Below, piece by piece: positions 12,834 to 56,232 of a DNA stretch of 64,000 nucleotides; position 1 is the stretch's first letter; every line of letters starts with the position of its first letter. Under the pieces are notes generated by a model. It was given only the letters and a program-made list of their open reading frames with translations, was not told where the DNA came from and did not search any database. Made by a program: the position numbers and the translations under genes. This stretch comes from an uncultured Verrucomicrobiota bacterium (GTDB lineage: Bacteria > Verrucomicrobiota > Kiritimatiellia > Kiritimatiellales > Tichowtungiaceae), in contig CAIKWE010000036.1 in the NCBI GenBank assembly GCA_903831085.1, positions 1 through 64,000 on the forward strand. Reading direction: 5' to 3'.

Positions 12834-13337
12834 TTAGGGCAGATTGCACTGCCGGAGGGCTTCATAAAGCACGATAGATACGGCATTGGCGAGGTTAAGA
12901 GAGCGGACGTTTTCCAGCTTCATGGGAATGTTGTAGACATCGTCCGGGTGCGCTTCAAGCAGGTCGAGGGGCAGACCGCGGCTTTCGCTGCCGAAGACCA
13001 GGCAGTCACCGGGGCGGTATTCCGCCTCGGTGTAGCTTTTTGTGCCGCTGGTGCTGAAGAAAATCATCCGATGTTTGGAATTTTCGTCCGAAAATTTTCC
13101 AAAGTTCGGAAAACGGCGGATTTCGACGGAGTCCCAGTAATCCAGACCGGCGCGCTTCACCTTCTGATCAGTCAGCCGGAAACCGAGCGGCTCAATCAGG
13201 TTAAGAACGGTGCCGGTCGCGGCGCAGAGGCGGGCGATGTTGCCGGTGTTTTGCGGAATTTCCGGCTCCACCAGCACGATGTTAAGGGGCGGGTCGGGCC
13301 AGTTGAACGGAAGCTGATTTCGAGGTCTGATATCCAT
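12834..13337 (-). CDS. trmL: tRNA (cytidine/uridine-34 2'-O) methyltransferase
   Basis: This SPOUT-class enzyme has 167 residues, normal for TrmL. It shows the knot motifs NIVLVEPEIPQNTGNIARLC, LVFGSESRGLP and IPMKLENVRSLNLANAVSIVLYEALRQ. TrmL methylates the wobble ribose of tRNA-Leu isoacceptors. A dispersed palindrome (13096-13112) encodes FPNFGK in a region between conserved motifs. The gene is convergent with nothing nearby and divergent from tRNA-Ala. Confidence 0.92.
   Translation of the reverse strand: MDIRPRNQLPFNWPDPPLNIVLVEPEIPQNTGNIARLCAATGTVLNLIEPLGFRLTDQKVKRAGLDYWDSVEIRRFPNFGKFSDENSKHRMIFFSTSGTKSYTEAEYRPGDCLVFGSESRGLPLDLLEAHPDDVYNIPMKLENVRSLNLANAVSIVLYEALRQCNLP
13096..13112. repeat. 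TTTCCAA-N3-TTGGAAA palindrome
   Basis: TTTCCAA-AGT-TCGGAAA in trmL; the minus-strand reading is FPNFGK. Confidence 0.78.
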
Positions 13338-15062: not shown

Positions 15063-15908
15063 ATGGCTTTACGATTCGGTAAGAAAAAATATTCAACGGT
15101 TCAGGTGCGTAAACGGGATGTTCCGGACGGTCTGTGGGAAAAATGCCCCGGTTGCGGCGAAATCCTATACGCCAAAGAGCTCGAGACCAGCCAGCAGGTC
15201 TGCTCTAAGTGCAGTTTCCACTTCACGCTGGGCCGCCAGAAGCGGATCGAGATGTTCGCGGACGAAGGCACGTTTGTCGAATGGGATGCGGATATGACCT
15301 CCGCCGACCCGCTCGGCTTCACCGGTAAAGACTCCTACGTCGCCAAGCTTGAAGCCAATCAGAAGAAAACCGGCTTCAAAGACGCCGTCACCTGCGGCGC
15401 GGCCAAACTCAACGGGCGCGACATCGGTCTCGGAGTCATGGACTTTTCCTTCCTCGGTGCCAGCATGGGCAGTGTGGTCGGCGAAAAAATAACCCGCCTC
15501 ATCGAGCGCTGTACCGCTGAAAAACGCCCTTGCATTATCGTCTGCGCCTCCGGCGGCGCCCGGATGTACGAAGGTCTTTTCAGCCTCATGCAGATGGCCA
15601 AAACCAGCGCCGCGCTGGCGCGCCACGCCAAAGCCGGTCTGCCGTACATCCCCGTGTTGACCCATCCGACCATGGCCGGCGTTATGGCCAGTTTCGCCAC
15701 GCTCGGCGACGTCATCGTCGCCGAACCCGGCGCGCTCATCGGCTTTGCCGGGCCGCGCGTCATTAAAGAAACCACCCAGCAGGATCTGCCCGAAGGCTTC
15801 CAGCGCGCCGAGTTTCTCGAAAAACACGGCTTGATCGACATGGTCGTTCCGCGCCCTCAGCTTAAAGCCCGTCTGGCTCTGGTCCTCGACTACATGATGG
15901 ACAAATGA
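15063..15908 (+). CDS. accD: Acetyl-CoA carboxylase carboxyltransferase beta
   Basis: This 281-residue subunit has the N-terminal zinc ribbon (CPGCGEILY...CSKCSFHF) and the crotonase-like carboxyltransferase core (VMDFSFLGASMGSVVGEK, IIVCASGGARMYEGLFSLMQMAKT, LIGFAGPRVIKETT). With AccA it transfers CO2 from carboxybiotin to acetyl-CoA, the first step of fatty-acid synthesis. The length is normal. Its stop overlaps the folC start by 4 bp, an accD-folC pairing seen in many bacteria. Confidence 0.97.
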   Translation: MALRFGKKKYSTVQVRKRDVPDGLWEKCPGCGEILYAKELETSQQVCSKCSFHFTLGRQKRIEMFADEGTFVEWDADMTSADPLGFTGKDSYVAKLEANQKKTGFKDAVTCGAAKLNGRDIGLGVMDFSFLGASMGSVVGEKITRLIERCTAEKRPCIIVCASGGARMYEGLFSLMQMAKTSAALARHAKAGLPYIPVLTHPTMAGVMASFATLGDVIVAEPGALIGFAGPRVIKETTQQDLPEGFQRAEFLEKHGLIDMVVPRPQLKARLALVLDYMMDK

Positions 15909-17185
15909 GTACAACCGATCTTCAGTCGGCGATTCAGTCTCTGTACGCCCGGACTATGCACGGCATAAAACCCGGTCTTGAGGTCACCGTCGCGCTGCTC
16001 GAAAAACTCGGCAACCCGCATAAAAGCCTGAAATGCGTTCACGTTGCCGGAACAAACGGCAAAGGCTCTGTCTGCGCCATGATCGAATCTGTCCTGCGCG
16101 CCTCCGGTTTTAAAACCGGACTTTACACCTCACCGCACCTTTTCCGCTTTAACGAACGGTTTCGTATCAACGGACGTGAAATTCCTGATCCGGCTTTGGC
16201 ACAGCTTATTGCCGACATCGAAGCCGCCGCGCAGAGTCTTACGACGCGTCCAGCCACCTTTTTTGAAATTTCGACCGCCATGGCCTTTGAATATTTTAAA
16301 CGCGAAAAAGTGGACTATGCCGTCATTGAAACCGGCATGGGCGGCCGCTGGGACGCCACTAACGTCATTCAGCCGGTTCTTTCCGTCATCACCCGGATCG
16401 ACATTGACCACACGGAATATCTCGGCGCGGACATTGAAAAAATTGCCTGGGAAAAAGCCGGCATCATCAAATCCGGCGCACCGGTTATTTGCGGGCCGAT
16501 GCCGGTCGAGGCCGAAGCCGTTATCTACAAAGAAGCCAAAGAGAAAAAAGTTCCGATCCTTGGAAGCGACGAAGCGGTGTTTTTCCAATGTTTGGAAAGC
16601 CGTCGCGACGACCAGCTTTTAAATATCGAAGCCAGCGGCCACGAATATCCGAATGTCCGCCTGCCGCTCGCCGGAAACTTTCAGACGGAAAATTGCGGCA
16701 TCGCCGTCGCCGCGCTCGAAGATCTTGCTGATATTGAAGGATTCCGCCTTCAGATGAAAAGGGGGCTCGAAGCCGTCAAATGGCCGGGCCGTTTCCAGCT
16801 TCTGCAAATGAAGCCGCCGGTGCTCTACGACGGCGCTCACAACGTTGGCGGCGCACGGGCGCTTTTCCAAACGCTGGAAGAAATTTTTCCAGGGTATGGA
16901 AAAGGTCTCCTCTTCAGCTTCATGAAAGACAAAGACGTTGAGGGCATCCTTAAAACGCTTAAACCCGCCGTCGAAAAAGCCTGGGCGCTGACGCTGCCCG
17001 GCGATCGCTCCATGAAAGCGGAGGAAATCGCTGAAATCGGCAGGCGGATCGGGCTGGAGATTACGCCGGTCGAATCGCCGCAACCGGTTCTCGACTGGCT
17101 CGAAGCCGGTAAAAAGCGGCTCGTTTGTTTCACCGGTTCGCTGTATCTTCCCGAAGAACTCAAAAAACATGGATTTTTCAAATGA
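15905..17185 (+). CDS. folC: Folylpolyglutamate/dihydrofolate synthase
   Basis: This 426-residue Mur-ligase-like ATPase has P-loop VAGTNGKGSVCAMIESVL, substrate motif TGLYTSPHLFRFNERF, IETGMGGRWDATN and the C-terminal domain with YDGAHNVGGARAL. It adds glutamate to folates. Three dispersed palindromes lie in it (FQCLE, FQTLEE and FPGYGK readings), all outside catalytic motifs. The start is coupled to accD (ATGA) and the end is coupled to murG. Confidence 0.95.
   Translation: MSTTDLQSAIQSLYARTMHGIKPGLEVTVALLEKLGNPHKSLKCVHVAGTNGKGSVCAMIESVLRASGFKTGLYTSPHLFRFNERFRINGREIPDPALAQLIADIEAAAQSLTTRPATFFEISTAMAFEYFKREKVDYAVIETGMGGRWDATNVIQPVLSVITRIDIDHTEYLGADIEKIAWEKAGIIKSGAPVICGPMPVEAEAVIYKEAKEKKVPILGSDEAVFFQCLESRRDDQLLNIEASGHEYPNVRLPLAGNFQTENCGIAVAALEDLADIEGFRLQMKRGLEAVKWPGRFQLLQMKPPVLYDGAHNVGGARALFQTLEEIFPGYGKGLLFSFMKDKDVEGILKTLKPAVEKAWALTLPGDRSMKAEEIAEIGRRIGLEITPVESPQPVLDWLEAGKKRLVCFTGSLYLPEELKKHGFFK
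16582..16598. repeat. Exact TTTCCAA-TGT-TTGGAAA palindrome
   Basis: A perfect 7+7 inverted repeat with a 3-nt spacer in folC; it reads FQCLE. Confidence 0.9.
16864..16902. repeat. Two TTTCCAA-type palindromes
   Basis: 16864-16880 (TTTCCAA-ACG-CTGGAAG, reads FQTLEE) and 16886-16902 (TTTCCAG-GGT-ATGGAAA, reads FPGYGK) lie 5 nt apart in folC, in two different reading frames. Confidence 0.78.
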
Positions 17186-26201: not shown

Positions 26202-26429
26202 ATGCGCTACATTTGCTCATTCAAAGACCACGGCTACCGCGACTCAACCAATCCGCTGCGCGGCCTTAATATGTCGCGCCTTGTCGGCCTGCAGGAATCC
26301 GGCGAACGCGGCGACTACGCCGACCTTCAGTGGTTCTACTACTACATGGAACGCTCCGACGCCATGATCCATTCCGCAATCCAGCGCCGCCGCGCCGCAC
26401 AGCTTTTTTCCAAACCTTGGGAAAACTGA
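26202..26429 (+). pseudogene. Mu-like portal (DUF935) N-terminal fragment
   Basis: The 75 residues contain DSTNPLRGLNMSRLVGLQES, GERGDYADLQWFYYYMERSD and MIHSAIQRRRAAQL. This resembles the start of Mu gp29-type portal proteins (DUF935), where a ~500-residue protein is expected. It stops abruptly within a dispersed palindrome (reads FSKPWEN). In Mu-like phages terminase directly precedes portal, matching the terminase tail at 24.4 kb. Confidence 0.6.
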
Positions 26430-26454
26430 TTCAAGAAGTTCCAATCATTGGAAA
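26407..26454. repeat. Two TTTCCAA-type palindromes at relic boundary
   Basis: 26407-26424 is TTTCCAA-ACC-TTGGGAAA (one extra G) and ends the portal fragment. 26438-26454 is GTTCCAA-TCA-TTGGAAA, with an exact core, and abuts the nfeD stop codon. They mark the edge between relic and backbone. Confidence 0.8.
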
Positions 26455-27846
26455 TCAGACTTTTTCCACAACGATGCGGCTGCCGGAGGTTTCGATCACA
26501 CGGACGGCGGAGCCTTTTTCAATGAACTCGCCGCGGGTGATGACGTTGACACGGTCGTCGCCGAACAGCGCGCGGCCCGCCGGACGCAGGTTCATTTCTG
26601 TAACGCCTTCTTTTCCGAGCAGTTCGCTTTGATCGTGCGCCGCCGTGAACCCTTCGGCGCGGGTTGTCTGCTGTCCGAGCACCATCGGACGAAGAACCCG
26701 TGATTTCGGCAGATATTTTCCGGCGAAAAATCCCAGCATGACCGTGCCGACCATACCTAGCGCAAGGCTGCTGAGTGCGTTCTGCAACGTGCTGTCACCG
26801 AAGGCGGGCCAGAAGTGCCCTGGAGTTTTCCAGGTCATCGCGCTGAAGAGCGAAAAGAGCATCAAGGCGATACCGCCGACACCGAGCACGCCGAAGCCGG
26901 GCGTGACGAACACCTCGATGAAGAGCAGGGTGAAGCCGATGATGAAGAGGACGATATCTTCCATGCCGGCCAGCCCGGCAATATGGTGTCCAAAGAAAAA
27001 CAGCACCAGCGCCGCTGTGCCGAGAATACCCGGAAGACCAAAGCCCGGCGTTTTGATTTCAATGTAGATTCCGCCGAGTCCGATCATCAGGAGAATCGGC
27101 GCAAACGCGGCGATGAAGCGCGCGATCCGTTCAGCGGATGTGACTTCGAGTGTTTTGATTTCCGCATCCGGCAGTCCGGCCTTTTCCAGCATCGCCGCGA
27201 CGTCTCTGACAGTACCTTCGGAAAGAATTCCCTCCGCTTCGCTGGCGGTCAGGGTGAGCAGTTCGCCCGCTTTGCTCAGCACATTTGTTCCTGCCGTATA
27301 GCCCAGTTCGCGCCGCACCATGGCTTCGCCAAGCCGTGGATCGTGTCCGCCCTGTTCGGCGGCGGCGCGCACCAGCGCGGCGACGGAGGAAGTCATTTTT
27401 TCTTCGATGGCGTCCGGCAGCTTTTCAACCCCGCCGAACGGAGTCATCACCAGCGGCGTGGCCGCGCCGATCACGCTACCGGGAGCCATGTAAATGTGTT
27501 TTGTGGCCAGCGCGATGATCGCGCCCGCCGAGTAGGCGTCTTTTTCAACAAAGGTGTAAACCGGCACATCAATCTGCCCGATCAGGCTGATGATTTCGCG
27601 CGCCTCTTTCACGCCGCCGCCGGGCGTATCCATGACGAAGACGACGGCGTCGGCCTTTTCCTTTTTGGCTTCTGTGACGCCGCGCCGGACGACGTAGAGC
27701 AGGGCGGGCTCAATCTGATCCTTGATCGGAATCTGGTAAACGAGCGGGGTTTTCCGAGGTTCGGAAGTATTGTCTGCGGTTTTCCCGATAAGAGGAAAAA
27801 TTACGAAGGCGAGCAGGATGACAACCAGTGAACGATATGCTTTCAT
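26455..27846 (-). CDS. nfeD: NfeD-family membrane serine protease (ClpP class)
   Basis: Starting at MKAYRSLVVILLAFVIFPLIG gives 463 residues and a signal/TM helix; the ORF track adds 168 unsupported codons. The ClpP-like domain has FVMDTPGGGVKEA, a Ser nucleophile region KDAYSAGAIIALAT and IGAATP. Four or five TM helices with GGIYIEIKTPGFGLPGILG and FVTPGFGVLGVGG follow, and then the C-terminal OB-fold NfeD domain (GKEGVTEMNLRPAGRALFGDDRVNVITRG). Long NfeD proteins are linked to membrane quality control with stomatin partners; none is seen here. Confidence 0.92.
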   Translation of the reverse strand: MKAYRSLVVILLAFVIFPLIGKTADNTSEPRKTPLVYQIPIKDQIEPALLYVVRRGVTEAKKEKADAVVFVMDTPGGGVKEAREIISLIGQIDVPVYTFVEKDAYSAGAIIALATKHIYMAPGSVIGAATPLVMTPFGGVEKLPDAIEEKMTSSVAALVRAAAEQGGHDPRLGEAMVRRELGYTAGTNVLSKAGELLTLTASEAEGILSEGTVRDVAAMLEKAGLPDAEIKTLEVTSAERIARFIAAFAPILLMIGLGGIYIEIKTPGFGLPGILGTAALVLFFFGHHIAGLAGMEDIVLFIIGFTLLFIEVFVTPGFGVLGVGGIALMLFSLFSAMTWKTPGHFWPAFGDSTLQNALSSLALGMVGTVMLGFFAGKYLPKSRVLRPMVLGQQTTRAEGFTAAHDQSELLGKEGVTEMNLRPAGRALFGDDRVNVITRGEFIEKGSAVRVIETSGSRIVVEKV

Positions 27847-27954
27847 AGCACGGATTCTATTTTGCCGGCGTGTTGAAGAAAAGAACAAAGCCATGCGGTA
27901 CGTGCGTTTCGTAAACCGGAATTCATGAAGCGGTTTTTTGAAAAGGAGAAACAA

Positions 27955-28392
27955 ATGGAAAACTGGTATCTCTACATTCTCGCCGGGCTGGCTGCCGGCG
28001 TTATGAGTTCTCTGTTCGGCGTCGGCGGCGGCATTTTGATCGTTCCGATTCTGACAATTGCCTTCGCCTTTGGACAGAAAAGCGCGCAAGGCATGTCGCT
28101 TTTTATCATGCTGCCGATCGCGCTGGCTGGCGCGCTTCGCTATAAACTCAATCCCGATATTCCGATCAATCTGCCGGTTTGCTTCATGATGGCGCTTGGA
28201 GGCATGGCCGGAGCGATAATTGGAACACAGCTGGTTTTTAGTATTCCGCAGATCCTTCTTAGACGGATGTTTGCTGTTTTTGTTATCATCACCGGCATTC
28301 ACATGTTCGTAAAGTCCTATGCCAAACCGGCCGCAAAGGAGCCGCCGCAACAGCAGGTAGAAAATTCATTTACAAAAGGCAACAAAGGTTAA
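27955..28392 (+). CDS. Half-size TSUP (TauE/SafE) membrane protein
   Basis: The start at 27955 (MENWYLYILAGLAAGVMSSLFGVGGG) has AAGGAGAA upstream. The 145 residues contain one copy of the TSUP half-motif GVGGGILIVPIL and four TM helices, with a C-terminal polar tail. Typical TauE/SafE permeases have two such halves (~250 residues), so this one presumably dimerises or is a truncated copy. The family moves sulfur-containing organic anions; the substrate is unknown. Confidence 0.82.
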   Translation: MENWYLYILAGLAAGVMSSLFGVGGGILIVPILTIAFAFGQKSAQGMSLFIMLPIALAGALRYKLNPDIPINLPVCFMMALGGMAGAIIGTQLVFSIPQILLRRMFAVFVIITGIHMFVKSYAKPAAKEPPQQQVENSFTKGNKG

Positions 28393-43623: not shown

Positions 43624-44367
43624 GTGAAATTTTATCTCCAGTGGTACGCGCGGCTTCCATCCACCAACACCTTTCTCAAGGAGCGGCTGGCGGTGGAGAG
43701 CAATCTGCCATCCGGCAAGGTGATTGCGGCGCGCGAGCAGACGCAGGGTCGAGGACGGCTTGATCGTGAATGGGTTTCTTCAACCGGCGAAAACCTGACG
43801 TTTTCCATTTTCCTGCGCGGAAGTTATGATCGCCGTAAACTGCCCGCCGCTTCGATGGCCGCGGCGGTCGCCGTGGCTGAACTGCTCGAAGCGGAAGGAT
43901 TGAAGCCGTCGCTGAAATGGCCGAACGATGTGCTGGTGAACGGTAAAAAAATCTGCGGGATTCTTTCCGAGGGAATATCCGGCGGCGTGATTATCGGCAT
44001 CGGACTGAACGTCAATATGCAGAACGCAGAACACATTGATCAGCCAGCGACCTCCATTCTGATGGAAGCCGGCAAACGGCGCGACATCGATGAGTTGCTT
44101 GGAAAACTGCTGAAGCGGCTTTCTGTCCGGCTCGACGAATGGGCGGCGGGCGGATTTTTCGCGATCCGGAAGAACTGGGAGGCAAAAGTCCCCGCCTTCG
44201 CCAAGGCTTCGGCGGGCGAGCCAGATATCGGGAAAATGGTCACTGTGCGCGACGGCGGCACGGCTCATAAAGGAGTTCTGGCTGGTTTCGGGCCGGATGG
44301 GGAACTGCTGTTGCGGGCGGACGACGGGACGGTTTTATCCATTTGGGCGGGCGACTTGTCCTCTTAG
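43624..44367 (+). CDS. birA: Biotin-protein ligase (BirA, no HTH)
   Basis: A GTG start and 247 residues; the catalytic domain lacks the N-terminal repressor HTH. It has LPSTNTFLKE, AREQTQGRGRLDREWVSSTGENL (biotinoyl-AMP loop), LKWPNDVLVNGKKICGILSE and GIGLNVN. The C-terminal SH3-like part begins at GKMVTVRDGG. Just before it lies PAFAKASAGEP, encoded by an inserted palindrome (44190-44216). It would biotinylate AccB for the carboxylase that includes the AccD encoded at 15.1 kb. Confidence 0.94.
   Translation: MKFYLQWYARLPSTNTFLKERLAVESNLPSGKVIAAREQTQGRGRLDREWVSSTGENLTFSIFLRGSYDRRKLPAASMAAAVAVAELLEAEGLKPSLKWPNDVLVNGKKICGILSEGISGGVIIGIGLNVNMQNAEHIDQPATSILMEAGKRRDIDELLGKLLKRLSVRLDEWAAGGFFAIRKNWEAKVPAFAKASAGEPDIGKMVTVRDGGTAHKGVLAGFGPDGELLLRADDGTVLSIWAGDLSS
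44190..44216. repeat. 27-bp palindromic element inserted in birA
   Basis: CCCCGCCTTCGCCAAGGCTTCGGCGGG is inserted in frame at the domain junction of birA and reads PAFAKASAG. Confidence 0.82.
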
Positions 44368-44442
44368 TCCTTTTCAGCCCGTTTTCCTTCAGCTATCATG
44401 CCGCCTTTCTTAGGCAATTTGTTCAGATAACGCGGAGGAAAA

Positions 44443-45843
44443 ATGAGCGGATTCTTCGGAGCGACGTTGAAACGGGACAGTGTGCTGGATGTGTTTTACG
44501 GAACCGACTATCACTCTCATTTGGGAACGCAGCGCGGCGGTATGGCGGCGCTGGATGCTGACGGCGGATTCACCCGCTACATTCACGATATCCGCAACGC
44601 CCAGTTTCGCTCCAAGTTTGAAGATGATCTGCCGAAGATGAGCGGCAACAGCGCGATCGGCATCATCAGCGACTACGAAGATCAGCCGTTGATCATTAAC
44701 TCCCGTCACGGGCGCTACGCGATTGTCACCGTCGGTGTGGTGCATAATGCCGCCGCGCTTGAGGCGGAGGCCTGCGCATCCGGCGCCCATTTTTCCGAAA
44801 TGAACGGCAATGAGGTCAATCCCACGGAGCTGATCGCCCACCTGATCAATCAGGGCAAGAATTTCACCGACGGTCTCGCGAAAGCGCAGGCGGCCGTTGA
44901 AGGTTCCTCGTCGATTCTGCTGCTCACCAAAGAGGGGATTTACGCGGCGCGCGACCGGCTGGGCCGGACGCCTGTGATTGTCGGAAAAAACAAAGACGGC
45001 TATGCGGTCACTTTCGAAACCTGCGCCCTGCCGAATCTGCAGTACACGATTGAGCGCGAACTCGGCCCCGGCGAAATTGTCCGCCTGACCGCCAATGGCG
45101 TGGAGCGGATGAAGTGCCCCGGCGATTGCATGAGGATCTGTTCGTTCCTTTGGGTGTATTACGGCTATCCCGCTTCCACCTACGAGGGGCGCAACACCGA
45201 AGATGTCCGCAACGAATGCGGGCGTATGCTCGCCCGGCGCGATGATGTTGAAGCCGACAGTGTGTGCGGCATCCCTGACTCCGGCACCGCCCACGCCCTC
45301 GGCTATGCGGAAGAATCCGGCATACCGCACCGGCGGCCATTTGTGAAATACACACCCACCTGGCCGCGCAGTTTCATGCCGCAGAATCAGCAGGAACGCA
45401 ACCGCGTCGCCAAGATGAAGCTCATTCCCGTGCGTGAACTGATCGAAGGCAAGCGGCTGCTCTTTTGCGAAGATTCCATCGTGCGCGGCACACAGCTGCA
45501 GGACACCATCGAGCGGCTTTACAGTGAATATGGCGCCAAAGAAGTCCACATGCGTCCGGCCTGTCCGCCGCTGGTTTTCGGCTGCAAATATCTGAACTTT
45601 TCCCGTTCGCGCTCCGTCGACGAGCTCGCCACGCGCATCGCAATCAAGGAACTGGAAGGGGAATATGTTCACCTTGATGAGTACGCCGACGACACCACCG
45701 AGCGCTATAAGGCGATGGTGCAGAAAATCTGCGAACGGCTTAACCTGACCTCGCTCCGCTTCCAGACTCTGGATGATTTGATCAAGGCCATCGGCCTGCC
45801 GAAGGAAAAACTCTGCACCTACTGCTGGGACGGAAAGGAGTAA
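44443..45843 (+). CDS. purF: PurF-like amidophosphoribosyltransferase without Cys nucleophile
   Basis: This 466-residue protein has the Ntn-type glutaminase domain and C-terminal PRTase with PRPP loop LLFCEDSIVRGTQLQDTIERL. The N-terminus is MSGFFGATLKRDSV, so the catalytic Cys that follows Met in PurF is Ser here. Bacteroides-type homologues I recall start MGGFFG and also lack it. It may use ammonia or another glutaminase, or it may have a different role. The strong ribosome site GCGGAGG precedes the start. It ends in CTYCWDG, as in this subfamily. Confidence 0.88.
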   Translation: MSGFFGATLKRDSVLDVFYGTDYHSHLGTQRGGMAALDADGGFTRYIHDIRNAQFRSKFEDDLPKMSGNSAIGIISDYEDQPLIINSRHGRYAIVTVGVVHNAAALEAEACASGAHFSEMNGNEVNPTELIAHLINQGKNFTDGLAKAQAAVEGSSSILLLTKEGIYAARDRLGRTPVIVGKNKDGYAVTFETCALPNLQYTIERELGPGEIVRLTANGVERMKCPGDCMRICSFLWVYYGYPASTYEGRNTEDVRNECGRMLARRDDVEADSVCGIPDSGTAHALGYAEESGIPHRRPFVKYTPTWPRSFMPQNQQERNRVAKMKLIPVRELIEGKRLLFCEDSIVRGTQLQDTIERLYSEYGAKEVHMRPACPPLVFGCKYLNFSRSRSVDELATRIAIKELEGEYVHLDEYADDTTERYKAMVQKICERLNLTSLRFQTLDDLIKAIGLPKEKLCTYCWDGKE

Positions 45844-45849
45844 GCCGGT

Positions 45850-46356
45850 ATGAAAAATTTCAAGGAAATCAGTCCGGACGATTTAAATGAAAGCGCAGTT
45901 CGTTTAATCGGCAAAGAGTGGATGCTGATCACAGCCGGAACGATCGGCAAGTGGAACACCATGACCGCCAGCTGGGGCGCGCTGGGGCAACTTTGGCGCA
46001 AGCCGGCGGCGTTTATGTTTATCCGTCCGACCCGCCATACCTTCGAGTTTGCGAACCGCGAGCCTCTTTTCACCCTCTGCTTTTTTGAAGAAAAATACCG
46101 CAAGGCGCTGAGTTTTTGCGGCGAGCATTCGGGACGCGACTGTGACAAGGCCAAAGAAACCGGTCTGACGCCATTTGAAGTCGCGCCGGGAACCGTGGCG
46201 TTTGAAGAGGCCCGCCTGATCCTTGTCTGCCGTAAGCTCTATTTTCAGGATATAAAGCCGGAACAGTTCCTCGATCCGGAGATTGAGATAAATTATCCGA
46301 AGAAGGACTATCACCGCATGTTTGTCGGCGAGGTGCAAAAGGTTCTGCGCCGCTGA
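45850..46356 (+). CDS. Flavin reductase-like FMN-binding protein
   Basis: This 168-residue protein has a split-barrel flavin reductase pattern: KEWMLITAGTIGKWNTMTASWGALGQLWRKPAAFMFIRPTRHTFEF, LFTLCFFEEKYRKALSFCGEHSGRD and ILVCRKLYFQDI. Such proteins bind FMN and reduce it or act in electron transfer. It lies 6 nt after purF and is likely co-transcribed. Confidence 0.9.
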   Translation: MKNFKEISPDDLNESAVRLIGKEWMLITAGTIGKWNTMTASWGALGQLWRKPAAFMFIRPTRHTFEFANREPLFTLCFFEEKYRKALSFCGEHSGRDCDKAKETGLTPFEVAPGTVAFEEARLILVCRKLYFQDIKPEQFLDPEIEINYPKKDYHRMFVGEVQKVLRR

Positions 46357-46435
46357 GTTCCGAGGGTTGGAAAAACTGAGCAAAAAATTTCCAAACATTG
46401 GAAAAAATGGCATATAGGGTTCCGAGGTTTGGAAA
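46357..46435. repeat. Cluster of three TTTCCAA-type palindromes
   Basis: 46357-46373 (GTTCCGA-GGG-TTGGAAA), 46388-46404 (exact TTTCCAA-ACA-TTGGAAA) and 46419-46435 (GTTCCGA-GGT-TTGGAAA). Centre-to-centre spacing is 31 nt for both gaps. They occupy the whole spacer upstream of pyrB. Confidence 0.9.
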
Positions 46436-46447
46436 CAGGGAGGTTGC

Positions 46448-47533
46448 ATGAGCAAAACGGCGGCATTAGACCGGATCGCGTGGGATCAATTCAGCGGATT
46501 AAGCTCTATCGAGAAGGCGCCGTATTTTATCGAAAACGGCCGATCATTCCATGCGCTGGTCGCCCAGCAGTTCAGCCGTCCGATGCTCGAAGATCTCTGC
46601 TCGCTGGCCACCTGTGTGCGGCGCATTGCCAAAACCCGCGAAGGCAGCGCGTTTCTTCAGACTCAGCTGTTTGACCGGCACGCCATGCTTTATTTCGCCC
46701 AGCCCTCGACCCGCACCTATCTTTCGTTTTACTCCGCCTGTCAGATCATCGGCATGAAGACCATGAATGTGCGCGACAGCTCCACCTCCAGCGAAATGAA
46801 AGGTGAGTCGCCGGAGGATTCCGTTCGGACGTTCAGTTCATATGCCGACCTCATCATTATGCGCCATCCGGCGGGCGGCTTCGCCGAGCGCATCGCATGG
46901 ATGCTTTCGAACACCTCGCGCCCCGTGCCGGTCGTCAACGCCGGTTCCGGTAAAGACCAGCATCCGACGCAGGCTCTGCTCGATATCTACACGCTGGCGC
47001 GCAGCTTTGAAAAGACCGGCGGCATTGACGGTAAAAAAATCGCCTTCGTCGGCGACCTGAAACGCGGACGCACCGTCCGTTCGCTGGCGTGGCTGCTCAC
47101 GCAGTACAAAGGCGTCAAAGCCTACTTCGTCGCGCCGCCGGAACTGCAGATCGGCGACGACATTCTCAAGCAGCTCGACGCGGCGGGAATGCCGTATGAA
47201 ATCAGCACCGACTTCGCCAAGGTGATTCCGGAAGTAGACGCCATCTACATGACCCGCATTCAGGATGAGTGGGACGTGGACGGCGAAAGCAGTAAGATCG
47301 ACACATCGGCCTACCACTTCACCAAGGAGCACCTAAAGGTTCTCGGTAAAAACGCCGTCATCATGCATCCGCTGCCGCGCCGCCTCGAAATCGATCCGGC
47401 GGTCGACAGCGACCCGCGCGCCGTTTACTGGCGGCAGGTGCGTAACGGCATGTGGATTCGCGCCGCGCTGATTCTGAGCATCTTCGAGTGCGACGGCGCC
47501 GTGAGCGACTATTGTAAGGAGCGGAAACTATGA
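46448..47533 (+). CDS. pyrB: Aspartate carbamoyltransferase-like protein
   Basis: This 361-residue protein is longer than the usual ~310. Carbamoyl-phosphate motif [62 protein letters not shown] and [20 protein letters not shown] are all ATCase features. The extra ~40 N-terminal residues precede the first core helix. It would make carbamoyl-aspartate for pyrimidines. It overlaps argF by 4 bp and has a palindrome cluster upstream. Confidence 0.9.
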
Positions 47534-48456
47534 AACACCTGATCTCTCTCAAAGACTGGAGCGCAGAGGAAATCCTCGGCGTGCTGGCGCTGGCCGCCAA
47601 GGTGAAAGCCCGTCCGGACAAATACCGTAAGGCGCTGCGGCAAAAAACCCTGCTGATGATTTTTGAAAAGCCGAGCCTGCGCACCCGGCTGTCGTTTGAG
47701 ATCGGTATGACCCAGCTCGGCGGACACGCCATTTATTATGACATGAGCACCTCGCCGATGAGCGGCGGCAAGGAAACTATCGAAGATTCCATCAAAGTGA
47801 TGAGCCGTATGTGCGATATCGTCATGGCGCGTCTGTTTCGCCATGAAGACATTCTCGAAATGGCCGAATACGCCACGATCCCGGTGATCAACGCGCTCAC
47901 GGATGAAGGTCATCCCTGCCAGATCCTGGCTGACCTTCAGACGATTCAGGAAAAGAAGGGCACGCTCAAAGGACTCAAGCTGGCTTATCTCGGCGATGGC
48001 TTCAACAACGTCACCCATTCGCTCATGCAGGGCTGCACCAAACTGGGTATCCATATCAGCGTCGGCTCGCCCGAAGAACAGATGCCTGCCGTCGAAGTCA
48101 CGGAACTGTGTTCGCAGTTCGCTCAGGAATCAGGCTGTGAACTGGTCGTCACCGACGATCCGGTCGAAGCCATCAAAGATGCCGACATTGTCTATACCGA
48201 CTCGTGGATGAGCTACCACATTCCGAAAGACGAAGAGGCCGCGCGCGTCAAACTCTTCACCCCGTATCAGGTGAACGCGGCGCTGATGAAAAACGCCAAG
48301 CCGGACGCCATTTTTATGAACTGCCTGCCCGCACTGCGCGGTGCCGAGCAGACCGCCGAAGTCATCGACGGCCCGCAATCGGTCGTCTTCGACGAAGCCG
48401 AAAACCGGCTCCACGCCCAGAAAGCCGTCATGCTCACGCTCTGCGGCGCGGTTTGA
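47530..48456 (+). CDS. argF: Ornithine carbamoyltransferase-like protein
   Basis: This 308-residue protein has carbamoyl-phosphate motif FEKPSLRTRLSFE, ARLFRHEDI, NALTDEGHPCQILADLQTI, YLGDGFNNVTHSLM and a C-terminal DEAENRLHAQKAVML. Two ornithine-site signatures differ from standard OTCase: SMG is replaced in DSWMSYHIP, and HCLP is NCLPALRG. It may be an OTCase subgroup or use a related amine. It is coupled to pyrB, so both carbamoyl-phosphate users are co-transcribed. Confidence 0.82.
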   Translation: MKHLISLKDWSAEEILGVLALAAKVKARPDKYRKALRQKTLLMIFEKPSLRTRLSFEIGMTQLGGHAIYYDMSTSPMSGGKETIEDSIKVMSRMCDIVMARLFRHEDILEMAEYATIPVINALTDEGHPCQILADLQTIQEKKGTLKGLKLAYLGDGFNNVTHSLMQGCTKLGIHISVGSPEEQMPAVEVTELCSQFAQESGCELVVTDDPVEAIKDADIVYTDSWMSYHIPKDEEAARVKLFTPYQVNAALMKNAKPDAIFMNCLPALRGAEQTAEVIDGPQSVVFDEAENRLHAQKAVMLTLCGAV

Positions 48457-48462
48457 GAATTT

Positions 48463-48527
48463 GGTAGGGACGGCTCTCCGAGCCGTCCGTTCTCAGTTAG
48501 CGGACGCCTCGGAGATGCGTCCCTACC
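48463..48527. repeat. Palindromic element after argF (tatD-insert relative)
   Basis: GGTAGGGACGGCTCTCCGAGCCGTCCG...GCGGACGCCTCGGAGATGCGTCCCTACC. Same outer arms and same GGACGGCTC...GAGCCGTCC hairpin as the tatD insert. Its end provides the stop codon of the VOC gene. Confidence 0.85.
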
Positions 48528-48915
48528 TTGCAGTCAACATGGGTGTGGCGCGTTTACAGAGCTGGATGGCCAGACCCCATGGGTCGCGCAGCATGACCAG
48601 GTGAGAGCCGTCATCCAGACGTTGATCCACAACAAGAGTTGCTCCGGCGGCGAGCAGGGCGGTTTTGTCGGCTTCAGGATCTTTTGAAACAAAGGCGATG
48701 TGGATCAGCAGCGGATCCATTTTCGCGTAGGGCGGAACCTGGTCCGGCGGGTTGTTATAAATTTCCAGCATGACGGTGCCACTGCTGTCCGCAAGGAAGT
48801 GCGTGCGGGCGGCGTCTTTCGCCGCGCGGACGACTTTCAGTCCGAGGTGTTTCGTGTACCACGCCGCCACGGCCACGGGGTCAGCCACATTCAGTGCGAA
48901 ATGTTCAATTTTCAT
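48523..48915 (-). CDS. VOC/glyoxalase-fold protein
   Basis: This 130-residue vicinal-oxygen-chelate protein has MKIEHFALNVADPVAVAAWYTKHLGLKVV, IHIAFVSKDPEADKTALLAAGA and LRDPWGLAIQLCKRA, with likely metal ligands His5, His/Glu mid-chain and Gln near the end. The substrate is unknown. AGGA precedes the ATG. The C-terminal residues after KRATP run into the palindromic element. Confidence 0.9.
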   Translation of the reverse strand: MKIEHFALNVADPVAVAAWYTKHLGLKVVRAAKDAARTHFLADSSGTVMLEIYNNPPDQVPPYAKMDPLLIHIAFVSKDPEADKTALLAAGATLVVDQRLDDGSHLVMLRDPWGLAIQLCKRATPMLTAR

Positions 48916-48951
48916 ATTGGTTTCCTATCCTTGGGTTTTAACGTTGAACCG

Positions 48952-49953
48952 CTACATGTTCAGAATCGTCTGCCAGGCGTCCGGATCGACCAAAATTCCC
49001 TTTTCGAGATTTTCTTTCCGGGCGGCGAGCATGCCCTGTCCGGGGTAACGGACCTGCTGTGCGTCCTTGATCGAGGGCGTATTTAGAAAATCATCAAGGA
49101 TGGTATTCACCTTTTCATCAACATGGCCGGCGCCCGCCTGCGATACGATGTCAATGGCTATGAAGACCTGTGAGACTCCGATTTCTTTTCCGCTCCGTGT
49201 GATCGCCCCCGTCGAATTGCCGCCGCTGATGAGAGTCGCCATCAGATCAAGCACGAGAGCGAGTCCTGAGCCTTTCCAGTAACCGATCGGAAGGGGACGG
49301 TGTGATTTCAAGATGGCATCGGGATCCGTGGTGAGTTCGCCGTTCTTGTCGTAGCCTCCGGCCAAAGGCAGTTTCTGGCCGCGCCGCCGGAAGGTATCGA
49401 GTTTTCCGTTTGAAAACTGGCTCATAGCCATATCGAGCAGGACGGGCCCTTCGCTGCGCGGGATGCAGACGACCAGCGGATTATTTCCCACCTTTCTTTC
49501 GGCCGCCCCCCACGGTGGCATGAGCGCGATGGTGTTGGTCCAGCAGATTCCGATACAACCGGCCTCGGCGGCCAGCAGTCCGTATGTGCCCGCCCGCATC
49601 CAGTGGTTTGTGTTGCGCAGTCCAACGCAGCCGATGCCGTTCCCGCGCGAAAGCTCAATGGCACGCTTCATCGCCTTTTCCGCATTGAGGGGGCCGATGC
49701 CTCTTTTCCCGTCCCACTGCTCGATCGCGCCGAAGGAACTTACAAGTTCAGGTTCGGCCTCTGGCTTGACGCCGCCGGTTTTTACATCGGTGACGAAACT
49801 GGGAAAGCGGTTCACGCCGTGCGAGTTGACGCCGTCGCAGGTGTTCTGAGTAAAGATCAGTGCGCATTTTTTCGCTTTGGAATCCTCAAAGCCTGCCGCC
49901 AGCAGAATCCGGGTGAGTTCCTGCAAAAGCTCATCAAAGGGTACTCGTTTCAT
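48952..49953 (-). CDS. Malate/L-lactate dehydrogenase-type oxidoreductase
   Basis: This 333-residue protein of the Ldh2/DlgD family (NAD(P)H-dependent 2-keto acid reductases). It has DGVNSHGVNRFPSFV (catalytic His), LRNTNHWMRAGTYGLLAAEAG, VGNNPLVVCIPRSEGPVLLDMA and YWKGSGLALVLDLMATLISGG. NHWMRAGTYG is close to 2,3-diketo-L-gulonate reductases. Start M at 49953 with GGAAG upstream; the track start adds 35 codons. Confidence 0.88.
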   Translation of the reverse strand: MKRVPFDELLQELTRILLAAGFEDSKAKKCALIFTQNTCDGVNSHGVNRFPSFVTDVKTGGVKPEAEPELVSSFGAIEQWDGKRGIGPLNAEKAMKRAIELSRGNGIGCVGLRNTNHWMRAGTYGLLAAEAGCIGICWTNTIALMPPWGAAERKVGNNPLVVCIPRSEGPVLLDMAMSQFSNGKLDTFRRRGQKLPLAGGYDKNGELTTDPDAILKSHRPLPIGYWKGSGLALVLDLMATLISGGNSTGAITRSGKEIGVSQVFIAIDIVSQAGAGHVDEKVNTILDDFLNTPSIKDAQQVRYPGQGMLAARKENLEKGILVDPDAWQTILNM

Positions 49954-53889: not shown

Positions 53890-53938
53890 TTTCCAAGGTA
53901 TGGAAAAACATGAACGAATAATTTCCAAATATCGGAAA
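53890..53938. repeat. Two intergenic TTTCCAA-type palindromes
   Basis: 53890-53906 (TTTCCAA-GGT-ATGGAAA) and 53922-53938 (TTTCCAA-ATA-TCGGAAA), 32 nt apart, fill the spacer before dedA. Confidence 0.85.
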
Positions 53939-53996: not shown

Positions 53997-54662
53997 ATGG
54001 AAATGATGAATGGGGTTGTCGAGTGGATCGTCGCGGTGGTCGGTCAGTGGGGATATGTCGGAATTGTAATTATGATGTTTCTGGAAAGCTCCTGCTTTCC
54101 GTTCCCCAGCGAGGTTGTCATGATCCCGGCAGGCTATCTGGCCTCGCCCGCCTATTTAACCTCCGCGAACTACGCTCCCGGCCATGAAATGAACCTATGG
54201 GTCGCCATCTTCATGGGCATCATCGGAAGCTGGCTGGGCGCTTTGTTCAATTACTATCTGGCTTTGGCTCTCGGGCGGCCGCTGCTGCTCAAATGGGGCA
54301 AGTATCTCCTGATTTCTGAAAAGAATTTTGAAAAGGGCGAAAAATTTTTCCGGAGTCACGGAGAGATCAGCACATTTACCGGACGGCTGATTCCAGTGAT
54401 CCGGCAGTACATTTCGCTGCCGGCCGGCATTGCCCGGATGAACATGGCGCATTTTCTTTTCTGGACCGGTCTGGGGGCCGGTATCTGGGTGACCATTCTG
54501 GCCGTCATCGGCTACGTGGCCGGACAAAACCGCGATCTGATTCAGAAATACTCGCGGGAAGCCACGATTCTGGCCCTTCTCAGCTGCGTGGTCATCATCA
54601 TCGCCTATGTGATTATCCACCGGCGGCGCAAGGCTCGTCAGTCCATCGCTGAGACTAAGTAA
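53997..54662 (+). CDS. DedA-family membrane protein
   Basis: This 221-residue protein has start 53997 (MEMMNGVVEWIVAVVGQWG). It has DedA/SNARE-associated features: MFLESSCFPFPSEVVMIPAGYLAS, GSWLGALFNYYLALALGRPLL, and FFRSHGEISTFTGRLIPVIRQYISLPAGIARMNMAHFLFWTGLGAGIW. Four to five TM helices. DedA proteins are implicated in lipid-carrier flipping and membrane homeostasis. Confidence 0.93.
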   Translation: MEMMNGVVEWIVAVVGQWGYVGIVIMMFLESSCFPFPSEVVMIPAGYLASPAYLTSANYAPGHEMNLWVAIFMGIIGSWLGALFNYYLALALGRPLLLKWGKYLLISEKNFEKGEKFFRSHGEISTFTGRLIPVIRQYISLPAGIARMNMAHFLFWTGLGAGIWVTILAVIGYVAGQNRDLIQKYSREATILALLSCVVIIIAYVIIHRRRKARQSIAETK

Positions 54663-54855: not shown

Positions 54856-56232
54856 CTACTTCGTCGGCCCGTTGGATTGGGCGAGCAGGGCGGCGAATTC
54901 CTTTTCGGGCATCAGCTTTTTCTCGCGCACCAGTTCGGCCAGCGTCTTGCCGGTCTTTAAACTCTCTTTGACCAGCTCGGCGACTTTGTCGTAGCCCAGC
55001 ACCGGATTTAAAATCGTCGGCAGTCCGGCGCTGTTCTCAAAATATTTCCGGCAGACCGCCTCGTTGGCGGTGATGCCGCGCACGCATTTTTTATCCAGCG
55101 CGGCGCAGACCTTGGTCAGAATCCGCAGCGACTTGACGATATTCGCGCCGACCAGCGGCATGTGGGTGTTCAGTTCCAACTGACCGGCGGCGCAACCGGC
55201 GGAAACCGCCGCGTCGTTACCGACCACCTGCAGGCAGGCCATATTGGCGGATTCGCAGATGCTCGGATTGATCTTGCCCGGCATAATCGAAGAACCCGGC
55301 TCAACCGGCGGCAGATTGATTTCGCCAAAGCCGGTGTTCGGGCCGGAGGCGAGCAGGCGCAGATCGTTGACGATCTTATTGATATCGAGTGCCAGCATTT
55401 TCAGCGCGCCGGAAAACGCGCCCATGTCGGAAAGAAACTGCGTGATCTCAATACCATCTTCAGCGGCGCGGTATTCCTGTCCGGTTGCCTGATTGAGCGC
55501 CTTGATAATTTCACCGCGGAAAGCGGCGGGCGTGTTGACGCCGGTGCCGATGGCGTTGCCGCCGATGCCCAACTCATGCAGATCCATACAGGCATAGGCG
55601 ATGCGGCGTTCGGCTTTACGCAGAGCGTGAGCCCAGGCGGCGAATTCCTGTCCAAGTGTCATCGGAACCGCGTCCTGCAAATGGGTGCGGCCGGTTTTCC
55701 AAACGTTGGAAAATTCGTCCGCCTTCTTTTCCAATGCCAGGATCAGTTTTTCCAAGGTCTGGAAAAGTCCGCCGGACAATTCAATCGCCGCGACGCGGAT
55801 AGCCGATGGAAAGACGTTGTTGGTCGACTCGCCCATGTTGACATCGTCGTTCGGATGCACGGTTTTGCGGTCGCCGCGCTTGCCGCCAAGCGCTTCGGCG
55901 GCCAGATTGGCCAGCACCTCGTTGACGTTCATGTTGCTCGATGTGCCGGAGCCGGCCTGAAAGGTATCAATCGGGAACTGATCATTGAACTTTCCGCTCA
56001 GCACTTCGCCGCAGGCGGCGGCGATGGCGACCGCCTTGTCGTGCGGCAGCAGGCCGAGTTGCGCGTTGGCGGCGGCGCAGGCCTGTTTCAATTTCACCAT
56101 CGCGTAGATCAGTTCCAGCGGAAGCTTTTCGCCCGCCATATGGAAATTTTCAATCGACCGGCAGGTATGCACGCCGTACAGCGCGTCGTCCGGTACCGTC
56201 AGTTCGCCGAGGGAATCTTTTTCTTTTCTCAT
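54856..56232 (-). CDS. aspA: Aspartate ammonia-lyase (fumarase/aspartase family)
   Basis: This 458-residue class II fumarase/aspartase protein has the N-terminal RKEKDSLGELTVPDDALYGVHTCRSIENF, closer to AspA than FumC. It has GSGTSSNMNVNEVLANLA, TGRTHLQDAVPMTLGQEFAAW and the catalytic loop GSSIMPGKINPSICESANM. Aspartase converts L-Asp to fumarate and ammonia; fumarase activity cannot be excluded. Two dispersed palindromes read SNVWK and FQTLEK, and a third weak match lies at 55728. Confidence 0.88.
   Translation of the reverse strand: MRKEKDSLGELTVPDDALYGVHTCRSIENFHMAGEKLPLELIYAMVKLKQACAAANAQLGLLPHDKAVAIAAACGEVLSGKFNDQFPIDTFQAGSGTSSNMNVNEVLANLAAEALGGKRGDRKTVHPNDDVNMGESTNNVFPSAIRVAAIELSGGLFQTLEKLILALEKKADEFSNVWKTGRTHLQDAVPMTLGQEFAAWAHALRKAERRIAYACMDLHELGIGGNAIGTGVNTPAAFRGEIIKALNQATGQEYRAAEDGIEITQFLSDMGAFSGALKMLALDINKIVNDLRLLASGPNTGFGEINLPPVEPGSSIMPGKINPSICESANMACLQVVGNDAAVSAGCAAGQLELNTHMPLVGANIVKSLRILTKVCAALDKKCVRGITANEAVCRKYFENSAGLPTILNPVLGYDKVAELVKESLKTGKTLAELVREKKLMPEKEFAALLAQSNGPTK
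55696..55712. repeat. Exact TTTCCAA-ACG-TTGGAAA palindrome
   Basis: A perfect copy in aspA; the minus-strand reading is SNVWK (third frame). Confidence 0.9.
55749..55765. repeat. TTTCCAA-type palindrome
   Basis: TTTCCAA-GGT-CTGGAAA in aspA, reading FQTLEK. It lies 53 nt from the previous copy but in a different reading frame. Confidence 0.8.

Follow-up and report, generated by a model that had tools for sequence, protein, structure and literature searches.

In the window, by which we mean the whole 64,000-nucleotide stretch of DNA analysed here, a gene for aspartate carbamoyltransferase (pyrB, 46448..47533, plus strand; TIGR00670, 265 bits against a cut-off of 237) is followed by one for ornithine carbamoyltransferase (argF, 47530..48456, plus strand; TIGR00658, 379 bits against a cut-off of 281). 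The 91-bp gap between pyrB and the ORF upstream of it, which appears flavin-reductase-like from its own sequence and has no match in an NCBIfam search, is occupied by an array of three 15-bp palindromes to which no strand is assigned. An earlier note on this DNA had described three such palindromes at a fixed 31-nt spacing with a perfect middle copy, and this description holds in each particular. The centres lie at 46365, 46396 and 46427, which gives 31 bp twice, and the middle copy is the inverted repeat TTTCCAA-ACA-TTGGAAA without a mismatch; the outer two have one G/T mismatch apiece. Palindrome 1 (TTCCGAGGGTTGGAA, 46358..46372), with one arm position mismatched, begins 1 bp past the stop codon of the upstream ORF. 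Palindrome 2 (TTCCAAACATTGGAA, 46389..46403), whose arms are perfect, overlaps the pyrB promoter at its presumed -35 position, and palindrome 3 (TTCCGAGGTTTGGAA, 46420..46434) covers the presumed transcription start, with the pyrB start codon 13 bp downstream. Between palindromes 2 and 3 lies a conserved -10-like element, AAAATGGCATATA (46404..46416, plus strand).

Aligning the pyrB upstream regions of relatives (12 Pontiellaceae loci, the window included) shows that the spacing is conserved. With at most one mismatch allowed, palindrome 2 is kept in 9 of the 12 loci and palindrome 3 in 7, palindrome 1 being confined to three (the window, L038 and L101), and AAAATGGCATATA is near-invariant across all of them. 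This element is probably the -10 region, a transcriptional role that we infer from sequence; a consensus scan for a sigma-70-like promoter gave no qualifying match at the array. The conservation of palindrome 2 may in part be conservation of the promoter, given its overlap with the presumed -35 position. Of 30 spacers within 31-32 bp pairs in the genus, just one contains TATA, the pyrB spacer, and this makes the arrangement of palindrome, -10 element and palindrome particular to pyrB, and palindromes 2 and 3, flanking the element, could possibly have a local effect on this gene. A riboswitch or attenuator was rejected, as an Rfam search of 44000-49000 found no known structured RNA at pyrB, and there is no intrinsic terminator within the array, where a T-run lies 5' and an A-run 3' of the hairpin. 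A triple array elsewhere (L210 1030-1097, genome G068), built from a C-type motif, has a 31-bp spacer, AAAAAATGGGGTATAG, similar to the -10 spacer of pyrB.

The pyrB array is one case of a dispersed element, since TTCCRANNNTTGGAA with at most one mismatch has 68 strand-matches in the window, compared with 0.95 in dinucleotide shuffles (sd 1.08, maximum 4). The pair before dedA that had also been remarked on is indeed present, with palindromes at 53891 and 53923, 32 bp apart (53891..53937); it ends 59 bp 5' of a dedA/uptA-like gene (53997-54662, DedA/UptA match). Two palindromes 53 bp, or five turns, apart (55697..55764) lie inside a minus-strand gene of the fumarase/aspartase family (54856-56232), where they encode the peptides FSNVWK and FQTLEK. 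Further pairs are found within a predicted minus-strand ORF (13066..13111, 31 bp apart; ORF 12834-13337), within a Mur-ligase-family gene (16551..16597, 32 bp apart; gene 15905-17185) and beside a minus-strand gene at its 3' end (26408..26453, 31 bp apart; gene 26455-28302). A spacer like TTCGTCCGAAAA recurs in the window at 13066-13111, at L038 2883-2928, at L101 2911-2956 and at L119 16209, some of these loci being unrelated, which hints at a further sequence preference or at local copying.

Judged by the relatives of its PyrB, the window comes from the family Pontiellaceae of the class Kiritimatiellia. Across the 2.14-Mb MAG to which it belongs, TTCCRANNNTYGGAA occurs 513 times in exact form, compared with twice for a reversed control, and arrays come about once per 2.6 kb, mostly within genes. 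Positional statistics were drawn from 454 kb of this genome and from sampled stretches of relatives, whose genomes are mostly MAGs. Sampling across the phylum shows high numbers of the strict motif in the class Kiritimatiellia alone, with 0-4 copies in other classes. Within the class, the relaxed core TTCCA-N5-TGGAA reaches hundreds to 1808 copies in families f1, f2 (part), f4, f7, f8, f10 and f16 (181-1091 in the window's genus, as many as 1808 in f4, 271-467 in f10, 179-183 in two f7 genera) and stays at background counts across most other Kiritimatiellia families. In genus g3 it numbers 61 in one species and 4 and 7 in sister species. The base adjoining the core differs by lineage (mainly A in f1, f4, g16 and G074, T in G095 and G047, C in G068), and the central base is nearly always G or C in the lineages compared. 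Spacings of 22, 31-32, 53, 62-63 and 93-94 bp recur across the A-, T- and C-type lineages, a comparison in which the samples for G095, G068, G047 and G074 are small. An inner base that changes between lineages while the spacing stays constant is what would be expected if the specificity of a protein drifts. In one f10 genome, G090, runs of 6-7 palindromes, with spacings of 22 and 30-31 bp, adjoin predicted genes (L120 7082-7263 and L121 6842-6992). Among viral contigs a strict palindrome pair is found in only two from IMG/VR, L167 and L168, which are possibly phages of these hosts, or else host DNA. A search of the open-access literature, with most subscription papers outside its scope, returned no description of such palindrome arrays.

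Adjacent copies lie whole helical turns apart, at 21-22, 31-32, 41-42, 52-53 or 62-63 bp. In 911 kb of the genus, pairs at exactly 31 bp number 24 and those at 32 bp number 8, where 0.17 would be expected for each distance; the ranges 16-19, 25-29 and 34-38 bp are empty. Rayleigh tests at a period of 10.5 bp in the window's own family give R values of 0.92 (16-35 bp), 0.76 (36-100 bp), 0.57 (101-200 bp, p 2e-5) and 0.32 (201-400 bp, p 3e-3), these and the following p-values being approximate because pairs that share a site are not fully independent; beyond 400 bp phasing is absent. Phasing is detectable up to about 200-400 bp, in coding sequence too: pairs with both sites in coding DNA give R 0.86 in the window's genome (n=33, p 3e-11) and R 0.81 in the single-contig genome G081 (n=19, p 4e-6); the spacing of these pairs does not follow the codon period. 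Weak sites with two mismatches that lie near strong ones cluster at 31, 42, 22 and 53 bp.

Within the 454 kb of the window's genome, 76 of 116 exact sites fall in predicted genes, as called by our own simple gene caller, and they use all three reading frames (codon phases 34/20/22). The coding sites yield recurrent peptides in core enzymes, among them FQTLEK, FSNVWK and FPMFGK. We followed one case in detail, the fumarase gene, in which both sites align without gaps to crystallised PDB homologues and are substitutions, not insertions. Among nine congeners, fumarase sites are gained or lost at codons 157, 164 and 174, which correspond to offsets of 0, 21 and 53 bp; the turnover of sites in this gene thus keeps the helical register. 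This single case argues for selection or drive that may act at the DNA level through substitution.

Arrays in the window's genome are most frequent in the gaps between convergent genes (1.78 per kb), followed by those between co-directional genes (1.0) and, last, those between divergent genes (0.42). The same order is seen in G012 plus G065, with an array density of 8.0 between convergent compared with 2.3 between divergent genes, and in G081, where convergent pairs again have the highest density and divergent pairs the lowest; a small f10 sample did not show the convergent-gene enrichment. This distribution makes general promoter control unlikely. Arrays often begin no more than 10 bp from a stop codon, and the sites sampled in G012, G090 and G047 are nearly all intergenic. 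In G053, where sites are few, 32-bp pairs adjoin genes without a functional relation. Distances between clusters are near random in the window's genome (CV 0.91), and in 21 sampled stretches of G081 sites are found all round the chromosome, including at both skew switches (presumed origin at ~1.4 Mb, presumed terminus at ~3.4 Mb). One stretch of this chromosome (L146, G081:C1:3600001-3620000) has 44% GC in a 53% GC chromosome and holds no palindromes even at one mismatch; it is possibly horizontally acquired DNA that has so far gained no sites.

We take the phasing, which is that of a same-face cooperative protein-binding array, as a sign that units bind on a single face of the DNA and touch one another. 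The earlier note had offered two readings of the pyrB palindromes. Its proposal of cooperative binding by a dimeric protein has strong support in helical phasing that is overwhelming in statistical terms and conserved across families. Its other proposal, a regulatory array for the pyrB-argF pair, is unsupported as a general explanation, given the frequency of the arrays, their mostly genic location and their preference for convergent genes. Our preferred explanation, which we consider reasonably probable, is that the palindromes are specific sites of one abundant, dimeric, sequence-specific protein that would bind cooperatively on the same face throughout the chromosome. Its dimers would most often sit three turns (31-32 bp) apart, with other spacings of two, four, five and six turns and loops to at least 200 bp, and neighbouring dimers would touch, so as to organise the DNA or wrap it. 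The sites would be kept by selection or drive that acts on the DNA itself and is strong enough to alter amino acids of housekeeping enzymes. With one dimer on each side of the -10 region, the binding protein would probably compete with RNA polymerase at pyrB. Two observations speak against this explanation: site counts differ more than 20-fold among relatives, an odd feature in an architectural system that should be essential, and the sampled sites of some lineages (G012, G090 and G047) are nearly all intergenic.

A search for the binder found none, and neither AsnC/Lrp nor NrdR, the two candidates whose phyletic distribution was compared with that of the motif, fits. Lrp/AsnC (feast-famine) proteins bind 15-bp palindromes in cooperative same-face arrays and wrap DNA. 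The sites described here are alike in being 15-bp palindromes in same-face arrays, but the single AsnC homologue occurs irrespective of the motif, also in motif-free genomes, and with a near-identical recognition helix. This helix is nearly the same in G007 (4 sites) and G053 (61 sites), and it varies neither with motif presence nor with the inner base. A degenerate pair of palindromes with 22-bp spacing (L023 7528-7564) lies ~40 bp upstream of the only asnC/lrp gene in the window's genome, which is weak evidence because site density is high; one site likewise precedes asnC in G095 (L204:12816). For NrdR, paired palindromic boxes do have to lie whole turns apart (PMC12051234), and the palindromes here also lie at integer helical turns. 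NrdR boxes, however, belong to a few ribonucleotide reductase operons, as opposed to hundreds of sites that are also genic, and NrdR itself (TIGR00244) is present in 46 of 47 genomes, of which only a part have the motif. AllR and IclR operators contain the half-sites TTGGAA and TTCCA (PMC8222616), but in the opposite orientation (TTGGAA-N-TTCCAA) and at single operons.

The main rival to a chromosome-wide binding protein is a drive like that of uptake sequences, in which the palindromes would be self-recognition signals for natural transformation, spread genome-wide, coding DNA included, by preferential uptake and recombination. The strong genome-wide over-representation that marks the DUS and USS of Neisseriaceae and Pasteurellaceae is found here as well, with hundreds to thousands of copies in coding and intergenic DNA. 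In the parts of the DUS literature available to us (PMC3630211), DUS form dialects and are associated with terminators, which recalls the lineage-specific bases around a fixed core and the enrichment at gene ends and between convergent genes seen here; the possibly foreign low-GC stretch at 3.6 Mb of G081 that is without sites would also fit. However, uptake drive does not predict phasing, and helical phasing over 200 bp is not reported for known uptake sequences in those same parts (PMC3630211). The unit here is moreover a 15-bp dyad at integer-turn spacing, which the canonical DUS is not, and we found no link to competence genes: the ComEC domain does not discriminate, as it is present in 45 of 47 genomes, with and without the motif, and has no match in motif-bearing G118 (418 sites). 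We consider uptake signals unlikely. A very large conventional transcription-factor regulon, in which tandem operators would repress or activate promoters including that of pyrB, seems to us somewhat less likely again. The two pyrB copies that flank a conserved -10-like element speak for it, as does G053, whose 61 remaining sites are mostly paired at 32 bp and frequently precede genes. Against it are the coding location of most sites in the window's genome, the concentration of arrays between convergent rather than divergent genes, the rarity of TATA in the spacers and the lack of a common function among adjoining genes.

REP/BIME-like repeats, mobile or domesticated and spread by a Y1 (RAYT) transposase, would also be palindromic, dispersed near stop codons and gene 3' ends and found between convergent genes. 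Y1 transposase domains are present in 39 of 47 genomes, and the TTCGTCCGAAAA-like spacer is shared by a few unrelated loci. These transposases do not correlate with the motif, however: G053 has arrays without a Y1 match, and Y1-rich G015 (21 matches) is without the motif. Unlike REP elements, the copies here are phased, their spacers are mostly unrelated, and in fumarase they are gapless substitutions; in a comparison of G053 with its sisters at serA, the intergenic DNA was too divergent for alignment in an insertion test. We regard such repeats as a very improbable source of the arrays. Signals for chromosome segregation or division-site placement, of the SlmA/Noc nucleoid-occlusion or MatP type, are in our view the least probable explanation. 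Their hallmark is a palindrome found chromosome-wide and bound by a dimer, and the sites here are alike in being palindromic and spread over the chromosome. The known systems have tens of sites with an origin or terminus bias, as opposed to hundreds of sites without a visible bias: in the 21 sampled stretches of G081, sites near both skew switches show neither exclusion nor confinement, and the terminus depletion of ter-avoiding occlusion sites is not seen.

A chromosome-wide binding protein thus remains the explanation that we prefer. More tentatively, and with somewhat less than even confidence, we suggest that the arrays may belong to an undescribed bacterial chromatin system, in which a clade-specific protein would organise chromosomes by way of hundreds of phased palindromes and a DNA code would override the protein sequence of housekeeping enzymes. 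If uptake signals were the cause instead, uptake sequences would be extended to a new class, in an unusual paired and phased form. If a protein does impose an integer-turn code throughout the chromosome, coding sequence included, these genomes would hold a natural, genome-scale record of the geometry of DNA looping or wrapping and of DNA-level selection in competition with protein-level selection. They would also provide a sequence-defined nucleoid system, testable by ChIP and Hi-C, for the poorly studied class Kiritimatiellia.
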